A stretch of 64,000 nucleotides of DNA from Alphaproteobacteria bacterium casp-alpha6. Its GTDB lineage: Bacteria; Pseudomonadota; Alphaproteobacteria; Rhodobacterales; Rhodobacteraceae. A program made the position numbers and the translations under genes. This document shows positions 2,426 to 24,952 of the stretch, one piece after another. The stretch lies in contig LFER01000025.1 of NCBI GenBank assembly GCA_001510135.1, positions 1-64,000 on the forward strand. The letters are read 5' to 3'. Each line of letters begins with the position of its first letter. Position 1 is the stretch's first letter. The notes below the pieces were generated by a model. That model made no database searches. It was not told the origin of the DNA and saw only the letters and a list, made by a program, of their open reading frames with translations.

Positions 2426-3763
2426 TCAGTTCAAATAATCCGACCTTTGCAAACCGTATTTTGCCATTTTTTCATTCAGAGTGCGGCGCGGCAAAAGAAG
2501 TTCGTCCATTACCTTTGTAATAGATCCTTTATGGCGGCGCATGGTATTGTCGATCAACATTTTTTCAAAGGCTTCAACATATTCTTTCAGCGGCTTTCCT
2601 TCCGTTGTGACCACGGATGTCACCTCGTTGGCATCACTCATCAAAAGCGAAGCAATTTTTCCCTGACCGCGCCGTGCCTGCAGAACTGCGCGCTCTGCGA
2701 GATTGGTAAGTTGGCGCACATTGCCTGGCCAAGGGGCCTGCATGAGTTGTGCTGCCTCTTGTGCAGATACAGTTGGTGGATCACATCCATAGTCTTCGGA
2801 AAAGGTCTCCGTTAGACGGTTGAACATGTCCAATATGTCATTGCCTCTCTGTCTCAACGGTGGGACCGTGATGCTCAGCGCAGTCAGACGATAGAACAAA
2901 TCTTGTCTGAGACAGTCTTTCAATATCTTGCCGGGCGCCTGTAAATTGCTGATTGCAATGATGCGCGTTTCTGGCGGATTGCCCTCTGAATTGATCGCGT
3001 TAAGCAAACGCGCCTGTACCGCTTCGGGCAAAGTTTCGATGTCTTCTAAGACGACAGTTCCGCCGCGTGCCTCTTCGAAGACAGGTAAAAAAGATTCCTC
3101 CGGCAAAACGGGACCAAACAGTCTGCGCATTAGCACCGGTTCATCCAAGGCGCCACAAGACAAGAGCACAAATTTCTTACCAGCCCGTGTACCCGCAGCG
3201 TGGAGCGCATGGGCAACCAAGGTTTTGCCGGTGCCCGTTTCTCCATCGATGAGCACATGACCGTCTGCCTGAGAAATATCAAGAATTTCTTCCCGCAAGC
3301 GCACCATAGCAGAGGATTTGCCGATCAGCTTTTTCATCAAAAGGCTTGCATCTGACAATTCACGACGCAGCGCGCGGTTGTCCAATGTCAGGCGGCGTGC
3401 ATTTGAGGCTTTCCGCGCCAAAGTGCTCATGCGTTCGGGATCAAAGGGTTTTTCCAGAAAATCAAAAGCCCCAATACGCATCGCTTCAACCGCCATAGGC
3501 ACATCCCCATGACCCGTAATAAGGATCACAGGCAGAGTGCTATCTTGGCCCATGAGCTTACGTAAAAACTGGATCCCATCCATTCCAGGCATTTTTATGT
3601 CACTGATCACGATTCCCGGAAAATCAACATCAATTGCCGCAAGGGCATCGGTTGCGCTCGCAAAGCTTTGGGTATCGTAACCGGAAAGCGCCAGCCATTG
3701 ACTTATAGACTGACGCATGTCGCGTTCGTCATCAACGATTGCAATTTTCATCGCCTGACTCAT
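2426..3763 (-). CDS. dctD: DctD-type response regulator lacking the GAFTGA loop
   Basis: A 445-residue response regulator paired with the DctB-like kinase just upstream. Residues about 5-120 form the receiver (acidic VDDERD, phosphoacceptor in ISDIKMPGMDG, Lys in EKPFDP). The AAA+ domain has an intact Walker A (GETGTGKT), but the Walker B region reads VVLEDIE where LFLDEI is usual, and the GAFTGA loop that contacts sigma-54 is absent: RLFG runs straight into PVLPEES. The arginine-finger region (RQDLFYRL, PPLRQR) is kept, and a C-terminal Fis-type helix-turn-helix (ITKVMDELLLPRRTLNEKM) is present. It probably regulates dicarboxylate or related transport by a sigma-54-independent route. Only 3 nt separate it from the kinase gene. 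Confidence 0.88.
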   Translation of the reverse strand: MSQAMKIAIVDDERDMRQSISQWLALSGYDTQSFASATDALAAIDVDFPGIVISDIKMPGMDGIQFLRKLMGQDSTLPVILITGHGDVPMAVEAMRIGAFDFLEKPFDPERMSTLARKASNARRLTLDNRALRRELSDASLLMKKLIGKSSAMVRLREEILDISQADGHVLIDGETGTGKTLVAHALHAAGTRAGKKFVLLSCGALDEPVLMRRLFGPVLPEESFLPVFEEARGGTVVLEDIETLPEAVQARLLNAINSEGNPPETRIIAISNLQAPGKILKDCLRQDLFYRLTALSITVPPLRQRGNDILDMFNRLTETFSEDYGCDPPTVSAQEAAQLMQAPWPGNVRQLTNLAERAVLQARRGQGKIASLLMSDANEVTSVVTTEGKPLKEYVEAFEKMLIDNTMRRHKGSITKVMDELLLPRRTLNEKMAKYGLQRSDYLN

Positions 3764-20739: not shown

Positions 20740-21435
20740 ATGCTAACCCGTAAACAATTGGATTTGTTGGCATTTATCAACAAACGTATGCAGAAAGACG
20801 GCATTCCACCGTCTTTTGATGAAATGAAAGAGGCGCTGGATTTACGGTCAAAGTCAGGTATCCACCGTCTTATCACCGCATTAGAAGAACGCGGATTTAT
20901 CCGCCGCCTTGCCCATCGGGCCCGCGCGATTGAAGTGGTGAAACTGCCCGAAACTTTGGGTGGAGAGGCTACAGGCTTTACCCCACAGGTCATCATTGGT
21001 GGAAAACCGGACCCTCGCCCGCCGGCTGCAACCCCGATAGAGGCGATCCATGCGATGGAGCTTCCTGTCATGGGGCGGATCGCTGCCGGAGTGCCAATTG
21101 AAGCAATTTCGGAGGTTTCCCATAATGTCGCCGTGCCCGGGCAAATGTTGCGCGGCGGGGGCGAACATTACGCGCTCGAAGTGAAGGGCGACTCAATGAT
21201 GGAGGCCGGCATCAATGATGGGGATGTCGTTGTGATCCGCGAAACGCGCACTGCAACGAATGGCGACATTGTTGTTGCACTCGTAGAAGATAACGAAGCA
21301 ACCCTGAAGCGGTTTTTTCATCGTGGTGATGTGATCGCGCTAGAGGCTGCAAACCCAGCCTATGAAACAAGGGTCCTGCCTCAAGAAAAGGTCAAGGTGC
21401 AGGGCCGTCTTGTCGGGCTGATCCGGACCTACTGA
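20740..21435 (+). CDS. lexA: SOS repressor LexA
   Basis: The 231-residue LexA has an N-terminal winged helix ([16 protein letters not shown]), a linker of medium length, and a C-terminal peptidase. The self-cleavage Ala-Gly bond lies in GRIAAGVPI, the catalytic Ser in KGDSMMEAG and the Lys in EATLKRF. On DNA damage RecA filaments stimulate cleavage and SOS genes are released. An SOS box in its promoter shows autoregulation. It is convergent with comEC, and their 3' ends overlap by a few bases. Confidence 0.97.
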
Positions 21436-23467
21436 GAATTCTTGTATCGCCCCGATTTTCGGGGCGTCCAAAACCTCTTTATGGTTGGTGGTGTCGCATG
21501 TGCAATGCGGCTGATCCGCCCGTCCTCACCAAACCAAATCGCTGTCGCACCATGTGCGCTCAGGTAGGCTTTGTCAAAAATAATGCAATCTCCGGAAATC
21601 ACGTGGCGAAGTCGTGTAATGTGAATTTCCTCTTGTGTGCAGTACACTGGTCCACCGTGGGTTTTTTTGACCAATGGCGTTTCACAGTTATATTGCCTGA
21701 CTGCCACAATCCGAATGCCTCATCGCGGTTGAGAAGCAAGCCATCGTTTTGGCCCCAGACCTCGGCAATAAAACTTGCCCCCCTTTCTTTGCTTAACGCA
21801 CGTCCCTCTTTGGTCAGTATGCCCACTAGGGCTGCATCTTGGTCAATCAAAAGTGCGGGGCGTTGCGTTGTAGACCAACCTATCAAAACACAACAAATTC
21901 CTACCAAAGACACCCACTTAAACCTTCCACGCCAAACAAAAAGGACCAGAACAGAGAGGCTTAGTACTGGCAGGACCCATGGTTGAGGTGTCACAATTTC
22001 TGACGTGGCATTGGAGAAACCAGAAAAATAGAGCGCGACTTTTGCGATCCATTCCAATCCAAGGCGCACCCCAAAAAGCCCAAACGCCTCTAACCCGAAG
22101 GGCATAAGAACAAAGCTTAACACCGCACAGGGCATAACCAGTATCCCCATCAAAGGCACACTCAGCATATTTGCCGGAAGGCTGACATGGGAAAAGAGGT
22201 TGAAGTGATAGGCCGCATAAGGGGCTGTCGCAATCCCGGCCACAAAAGATGATAAAAAAACGCCCAAACCCCAATTGACCACCTTGCGCCTGCTTTGAAA
22301 TGCTGAGTCCTTCCACCATAGAAAAGCCACGACAAGCGCGGTGGTTGCTGCAAATGACATTTGAAAACCGGGGCTGAATAATGCTTCTGGACGCAACAGC
22401 AATAAAATGGCCGCTGCAAGAGCTACAGAACGGAGGCTGATGGCACGCCTGTCAAACAAAACTGCGACCAACATAACGGCCACCATTACAAAAGCACGCT
22501 GTGTCGATATGCTCCCCCCAGAAAGCCCAAGATAGACCGCAGCCGTACAAAGTGCGACAAAGGCCGCTATCTTTTTGGCATAAAGACGCGTAAAAAATAC
22601 AGGAAGGAGAAGGCAGATGGTACGCGCGGCCAGCAGAATCACAGAAACCAACAATCCCATATGCAAGCCGGATATTGCAAGGAGATGGGCAAGATTGGTG
22701 CGTCTGAGATCCTTTACCAAACTGGGCTGCAGCCCCGAACGATCTCCGGTCATAATGGCAGCTGCAAATCCCGCCACAGGCTGAGACAGCTCTGCTTCGA
22801 TCCGTGAAGACAGGGTTCCGCGCAATTTTGCAAACCAAAGCGGCAACGGCGTTATGTCAGAATTCTGAAGTTCTACGGCTTTTCGGGTATATCCGACACC
22901 ACCAAGCCCCTGAAAATAGGCGTGACGGCGGAAATCAAATCCGCCGGGTTCCGCAGGACTCTGAGGAGGTACCACCGATCCCTTGGTGAGGAGCTTATCG
23001 CCAATACTCGGTTCCCGTTCTGGGGGAGGACCATGCAGCGAAAGCCGGATACGCGCAGGCGTTCTCGGCTTTGAAATTTTGCCAAGCTGCACCTGATCCA
23101 GTGTGATGCGCAAGGCGCCTGATGCTGATCGATCAATACCGATCACACGTCCTTCAATTTCTCCATAATAGCGGTAGCCCAAGGTGGGAGCATGCACCAT
23201 ATGTGTGCGCAGCCCTGCAACAACAAATCGCGCAAAGATCAGTGCAACTGCCCAAATTATGCTTCTCACGACTGTATCAAAGAACAGCCCCACCGCCCAA
23301 AGTCCCATACCCAAAACAGCACAGAACGTTAAACTAAAGATCGACGGCTCAAAGGAGAGCGAAAAGAAAATACCTATCCCCGCCGCTATGAAAACAGGGA
23401 TCCAGTAAAACAACGCATCGCGTTGCAATAACATTTCTTGGGCAAATGACAGCCATATGCGAAGCAT
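21429..23467 (-). CDS. comEC: Competence protein ComEC/Rec2, C-terminal frame change
   Basis: ComEC forms the inner-membrane channel for DNA uptake. The N-terminal two thirds hold an OB-like DUF4131 region, then the Competence domain with multiple spans ([34 protein letters not shown]). The upstream frame ends at 21599 with an unnatural tail ([16 protein letters not shown]). The typical ComEC C-terminus ([25 protein letters not shown]) continues in the -1 frame to a TAG at 21429. The switch point is an A7 run at 21662-21668 (TCA AAA AAA), which has the form of a slippery heptamer. Either this is a frameshift mutation or error, or the full protein (about 679 residues) is made by slippage. It is divergent from gltX. 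Confidence 0.85.
21448..21466. terminator. Hairpin at the lexA/comEC junction
   Basis: CGCCCCGA and TCGGGGCG form a perfect 8-bp stem around TTT, 13 bp after the lexA stop. It could end lexA transcripts. The following T-tract is weak, and the hairpin lies inside the last codons of frame-corrected comEC. Confidence 0.5.
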
Positions 23468-23542: not shown

Positions 23543-24952
23543 ATGAGCGAGATTGTGACGCGCATTGCGCCCTCTCCGACGGGTTATATGCATATTGGAA
23601 CAGCACGCACTGCGCTTTTTAACTGGCTCTATGCCAGAGGACGTGGTGGAAAGTTCCTTTTGCGCATTGAAGACACGGATAAGGCCCGCTCTACGCCCGA
23701 AGCCACCGAAGCAATATTCAAGGGAATGCAATGGCTTGGCCTTGATTTTGATGGTGATCCCGTCCATCAAGGCCAAAGAGCCCAACGGCATGCAGAAGTC
23801 GCTCATGAATTACTGCATGCAGGTAAGGCCTATAAGTGTTTTGCTACGCAAGAAGAAATCGCCGCATTTCGCGAAACCGCACGCAACGAAGGCCATTCCA
23901 CCCTATTTCAAAGCCCTTGGCGGGATGTGGATGAGAAAGATCATCCTGACGCCCCTTTTGTGATCCGGATAAAATCCCCTCAAAGCGGGGAGACTGTTAT
24001 CAACGATCAGGTGCAGGGCAATGTCACTATCCGCAACGATCAGTTGGATGATATGATCCTGCTGCGCTCCGATGGGACACCTGTTTATATGCTGGCGGTT
24101 GTGGTCGATGATTTTGATATGGGCATCACCCATGTTATTCGCGGTGACGATCATCTGAACAATGCCGCGCGACAAATGCTGATTTACAACGCGATGAATT
24201 GGCCCCTGCCCGTTTATGCTCACGTCCCGCTGATTTTCGGAGAAGACGGAAAGAAACTGTCCAAACGCCATGGCGCCACAGGTGTCGAAGATTACCAAAA
24301 GATGGGATACCCCGCCTCTGGCATGAGAAACTATCTGGCCCGTCTGGGATGGAGCCATGGGGATGCTGAATTCTTCACTGATAAGGACGCGCAAAACTGG
24401 TTTGACCTCGGCGGCATTGGCAAATCGCCTGCGCGCTTTGATTTCAAAAAACTGCAAAACCTTTGCGGTCAGCATATCGCTTCCACAGAAGATGCTGCGC
24501 TGCTGCAAGACATTATCGAATTTTGTGAAATTTCAGAAATGCCATTTTCTAAAGAGGATTTGGAAACAAAACTGGCCCCCGCGCTCTACTGTGTAAAGGA
24601 CCGTGCAAAAACCTATCCGGAACTCTTTGATAAAGCGCACTTTTGCCTTACATCCCGTCCGATTTCAGCAGATGAAAAAGCCATCAAATCCCTAACGCCT
24701 GACGCAATCTTGATGTTCAAATCATTGACGCCGCAATTGCAAAATGCTAACTGGTCTCGAGAGACTTTGGAGTTAATTTGCACGAAAGTCACAGACGCCT
24801 TTGGCACCAATTTCGGCAAACTCGCGGGCCCGCTGAGGGCCGCACTGGCAGGAAGAACGGTGACGCCAAGCGTGTTTGACATGATGTTGGTTTTAGGCAA
24901 GGAAGAGACGGTCGCTCGGCTCATGGACGCACAACAGCGTGCAGGTGCATAG
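23543..24952 (+). CDS. gltX: Glutamate-tRNA ligase
   Basis: A 469-residue class I aminoacyl-tRNA synthetase charging tRNA-Glu (nondiscriminating forms also charge tRNA-Gln). It starts [28 protein letters not shown] with the HIGH-type motif MHIG, and has KLSKRHG as the KMSKS-type loop. The C-terminal anticodon-binding region is complete. The comEC-gltX-gltA order is common in Rhodobacterales. AAAGG lies about 12 nt before the ATG. Confidence 0.95.

Follow-up and report, generated by a model that had tools for sequence, protein, structure and literature searches.

In Rhodobacter capsulatus, receipt of RcGTA is reported to be aided by ComEC, ComF and ComM at the stage of DNA entry and by DprA and RecA at that of integration, and comEC, comF and dprA are named among the families that co-evolve with gene transfer agent (GTA) genes in 293 GTA-containing genomes (PMC10883770). 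Loss of GTAs in roseobacters is already known, since Planktomarina temperata is described as having no complete GTAs (PMC10675870). Among papers on the GTA with loss of comEC or dprA and on comEC frameshift pseudogenes, judged by their titles and abstract openings, we found no description of such joint loss. The comEC gene described here resembles the singleton frameshifted genes and hypothetical pseudogenes treated in the GeneTack account (PMC3711429) in having a single, unconserved frame change near its 3' end that is supported by homology, and differs from the hypothetical pseudogenes presented there in that its relatives show later stages of loss at the same locus. With dnaX-type −1 programmed frameshifts it shares the A_AAA_AAA register and a continuation in the −1 frame; it differs from them in that no stimulators were seen at the site and in its lack of conservation.

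The window (the whole 64,000-nucleotide stretch that was analysed) carries comEC on the minus strand as a zero-frame ORF of 622 aa (23467–21599). DUF4131 (PF13567) spans aa 47–197 of this ORF (57.7 bits against a cut-off of 31.6) and the Competence domain (PF03772) aa 239–515 (211.2 bits against 23). The NCBIfam subfamily domain TIGR00360 was likewise above its cut-off (100.8 versus 36.5), and the ComEC_Rec2 equivalog TIGR00361 below it (149.5 bits versus 190.05), so that the name ComEC rests on Pfam, alignment and locus, and not on the equivalog. The gene lies between gltX (23543–24952, plus strand), from which it diverges, and lexA (20740–21435, plus strand, with orthologues in relatives), with which it converges; this is the family-wide arrangement, a gltX match being present at 106 and a lexA match at 102 of 109 family loci. 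In domains, conserved tail residues and gltX–comEC–lexA order the window gene is like other comEC genes of Rhodobacteraceae, and its two frames joined would give a protein of similar length (679 aa, compared with at least 675 aa in 104 family ORFs); it differs from them in being out of frame past aa 602.

The frame changes at an A7 run (21662–21668, minus strand), where the sense strand reads ...TGG TCA AAA AAA CCC ACG..., the A_AAA_AAA heptamer and register being as given in the preliminary description. Past the run, the zero frame continues for exactly 20 residues (21599–21661) to a TGA at 21601–21599, and these residues, earlier described as about 20 and unnatural in look, gave no BLAST match at E 10. 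The −1 frame (21429–21661) instead runs for 77 residues, including an RFWTP segment, to a stop at 21429, and overlaps lexA tail to tail by 7 bases. For comparison we aligned the family comEC genes, 104 of the 109 loci having yielded closed ORFs of more than 600 aa; the other five (L022, L027, L029, L073, L083) were left out beforehand because they ran off a contig end or their best frame did not exceed 571 aa, and L083 and L027 may be broken comEC genes too. All 104 closed ORFs run on for 65–111 residues beyond the window's break point, with tail columns C610, C628 and G640 (numbered on the read-through protein) conserved in 104/104 and R665 and W667 in 103/104. The window's −1 frame retains all five of these residues and, past residue 602, agrees at 10 of the 13 columns with at least 75% conservation. 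By BLAST the displaced tail showed only weak similarity (best E 0.043), and it gave no Pfam or NCBIfam family above cut-off. The frame change is therefore confirmed as real in the assembled sequence. The alignment shows that homology continues in the −1 frame, which carries the genuine C-terminus, in agreement with the earlier view of a ComEC-like end lying next to lexA. The A7 run in itself is not rare, the window containing 20 homopolymers of at least 7 bases, with seven A7 or longer runs on the strand of comEC.

We then compared the locus across the genus, for which seven genomes with completeness of 55–96% were available, the window's included. By profile search, PF03772 and DprA (PF02481) were present in the window genome and in none of its six congeners, as against 27/30 and 30/30, respectively, in 30 other family genomes (25/30 for PF13547). 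Three of the six congeners hold the stretch from the last lexA codon to gltX on a single contig, where it is reduced to 448 bp (G001), 581 bp (G003) and 421 bp (G006). G001 keeps both ends of comEC, as an N-terminal remnant spread over two frames (DNA 73% identical over 209 bp) and a weak C-terminal match (E 0.012), and G003 keeps an N-terminal remnant containing stops; no comEC remnant was detected in the 421-bp interval of G006. In G004 and G005 the comEC locus runs into a contig edge; G002 gave neither a lexA nor a gltX match. At the G004 locus (L136, contig C70) a 21-residue LexA-like match at 3183–3245 lies 43 bp from gltX in an unexpected orientation at the contig end, and is possibly an assembly artefact.

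A LexA plus GltX tree of 63 genomes, which lacks support for 33 of its 60 inner branches and has long branches leading to G111, G020, G146, G121, G023 and G127, places the window genome in a clade of eight (SH-aLRT 99) made up of the six placed genus members, G177 and G167. Within this clade six genomes lack comEC or carry it broken and none has it intact, the remaining two being G004 and G005 with their contig-edge loci. In G177, comEC is spread over several frames, being broken at several places, and DprA has an inner stop; in G167, lexA and gltX lie only 165 bp apart. Other broken comEC genes break elsewhere than in the window, near aa 465 in G119, between aa 44–66 and 203–214 in G151 and near the N-terminus in G009.

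Because close relatives have lost comEC piece by piece, the frame change is more readily seen as ordinary gene decay than as a concealed coding device, and we consider it probable that the window's comEC is a young pseudogene, arisen by a one-base contraction of the poly-A run and tolerated in a lineage that no longer keeps DNA uptake. The contraction, most simply a slipped-strand deletion during replication, would have shifted the reading frame of the final ~77 codons, so that the most the cell could produce would be a presumably inactive ComEC without the conserved C-terminal tail and the two invariant cysteines in it. Such a break would be tolerated if the lineage no longer maintains DNA uptake, as suggested by the loss of comEC and dprA in relatives and by the lack of GTA markers in the genus (GTA_TIM, PF13547, and PF09931 each found in 0/7 genomes). 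Against decay stand the incompleteness of the congener genomes (55–96%) and the window's dprA, which looks intact as a 380-aa ORF; yet, with the tail so well preserved and DprA intact-looking, the break, if real in the organism, would be very young. Indeed, as the tail keeps its five most conserved residues and nothing else in the gene is broken, comEC must have been intact until very recently or may be so still.

The last possibility corresponds to an assembly or consensus error in which the run of a gene intact in the organism came out one A too short. Homopolymers are the commonest site of dropped-base assembly errors, the break falls in one, the displaced tail is well conserved and the window genome is a draft (2.98 Mb, 68 contigs, 86% complete). 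Nonetheless, each of 57 congener ORFs, which together cover 34,987 nucleotides of the window, aligned in one frame throughout, with no second frame change among the window genes so covered, and 10 of the window's 20 homopolymers of 7 or more bases fall within these matches. In-frame stops in the window frame occurred in 20 of the 57 matches; in 12 of these all stops lay within the first 31 positions, as expected of stop-to-stop ORF leaders, and of the other eight most overlap, in full or in part, a longer match on the opposite strand. Since the congener-covered genes each match in one frame, no general assembly problem is seen; a single isolated error, which would by chance have hit the very gene eroded in relatives, is unlikely.

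Of the three readings offered in the preliminary description (loss of one A with impaired competence, a homopolymer error, or both forms made by slippage), loss of function is the best supported, given the erosion or deletion of comEC elsewhere in the clade; of the hallmarks of slippage that we tested, the heptamer alone was present. Productive slippage, at A_AAA_AAA as the ribosome translates or along the A-run as RNA polymerase transcribes, would yield some full-length ComEC, and both the correct slippery register and the conserved −1 tail fit it. However, the A-run at the aligned place is no longer than five in 103 of the 104 family ORFs, and the sole A7 in the family (L064, Rhodobacteraceae MAG NORP153) is read straight in frame; by the refuting condition named in the preliminary description, this counts against slippage in the family. 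Moreover, for three segments at and beyond the site RNA folding was no better than for shuffled sequences (z 0.14, −0.22 and 1.06) and no Shine–Dalgarno-like stretch was apparent by eye in the 30 bases upstream of A7, so that we regard productive slippage as very unlikely, although some at a low level may occur. Poly-A runs of at least 7 are described as able to act as switches (PMC3711429), and a run reversibly lengthening and shortening could turn ComEC on and off within a population, consistent with conservation of the displaced tail; but for a run this short and unconserved, in a lineage whose relatives carry irreversible comEC deletions, phase variation seems most improbable. That the 622-aa form is itself functional, its tail dispensable, would accord with Pfam domains that stop at aa 515, well before the break at aa 602, and with a lost tail lying outside every Pfam and NCBIfam family, yet is scarcely credible when every closed family ORF extends past the break, near-invariant positions included.

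Two further comparisons were tried and set aside. Relaxed selection on comEC before the break was considered, as the window ComEC is changed at 16 of 166 conserved columns, the most of 79 compared; GltX too stands out (14 of 227 columns, rank 2 of 78), as does LexA (rank 7 of 77), so that some of the excess, if not all of it, belongs to the lineage as a whole. A congener comEC could not serve as a close outgroup, since only G005 has an open N-terminus, which is contig-cut and 42% identical to the window's, compared with a median of 40% for other genera.

We also surveyed 150 family genomes: 149 that pass a completeness threshold of 95%, and the window's, which reaches 86%. GTA_TIM was missing in 21 of these (G181 being counted among the 21 by exclusion) and PF03772 in nine; comEC was absent in 8 of the 21 genomes without GTA_TIM and in 1 of the 129 with it (Fisher p 3.2e-7, shared ancestry ignored). 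Eleven further genomes (G071, G083, G096, G113, G123, G147, G149, G150, G153, G162, G177) matched GTA_TIM only weakly (E 1e-36 to 1e-46), through either a GTA remnant or some other element whose tail protein is related. PF09931, searched in 43 genomes (the seven of the genus, 20 others without GTA_TIM, the 11 with weak matches and five with the GTA), was found in all five GTA-positive comparison genomes (G015, G080, G099, G155, G163); it was missing in 10 of the 11 weak-GTA_TIM genomes and weak (E 1e-5) in G096, and these 11 were therefore reclassified as GTA-less. With this classification, comEC was absent in 8/32 GTA-less and 1/118 other genomes (p 1.5e-5, shared ancestry ignored), and absent or broken in 13/32 versus 4/118 (p 2.6e-7, shared ancestry ignored). 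The contig-cut cases G095, G131, G153, G162 and G165 are scored as not broken in these main counts; in a variant that leaves them out together with the window's clade, comEC was absent or broken in 10/26 versus 4/116 (p 5.0e-6, shared ancestry ignored).

A tight link between GTA and comEC is countered by the 19 of 32 GTA-less genomes that were not scored as broken in or lacking comEC, three of them contig-cut, and comEC is broken or absent despite the GTA in G009, G119, G132 and G163. A tree-based pair test of comEC against GTA gave only two usable pairs on supported branches and so had no power, the tree having scored comEC of G009 as intact despite its N-terminal frame break. The breaks in G009, G119 and G132, all with GTA_TIM, consist of an N-terminal frame change, two frames and an inner TAG respectively. 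In G135 (3.5 Mb in one contig), which is without GTA_TIM, comEC is interrupted by three internal TGA codons and dprA by one.

None of the nine comEC-less genomes had a DprA of the usual score: five had none, and four (G020, G035, G087, G127) only a lower-scoring one, with best matches of 191–197 bits and 299–341 aa, the types being distinguished by score and length alone. Among the 141 other genomes, DprA was missing only in G184 and limited to a match below cut-off in G165. G184 (4.0 Mb, two contigs) has both GTA_TIM and comEC and gave no PF02481 match. G020, G032, G035, G087, G127, G134 and G136 encode a shorter DprA-like protein (~300–350 aa, score below 200 bits), either as the sole copy or beside another DprA.

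Based on this co-occurrence, GTA loss would relax selection on comEC, GTA-borne DNA no longer arriving. We tentatively propose, as a possibility short of an even case, that Rhodobacteraceae keep ComEC and DprA mainly to receive GTA DNA and that after GTA loss the uptake genes decay stepwise, this clade having been caught in mid-process. As part of this tentative proposal, and no more firmly held, the decay could have passed from a one-base break (the window) through multi-frame ruins (G177) and remnants of the ends (G001, G003) to clean removal (G006, G167). A broken comEC alone is ordinary; graded loss of the gene at one fixed locus, together with loss of dprA and absence of the GTA, amounts to a natural experiment on what the uptake genes are for, addressing whether they serve GTA receipt or transformation with free DNA. 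Co-loss in GTA-less genomes would thereby complement the co-evolution reported as inferred within GTA-containing genomes (PMC10883770).
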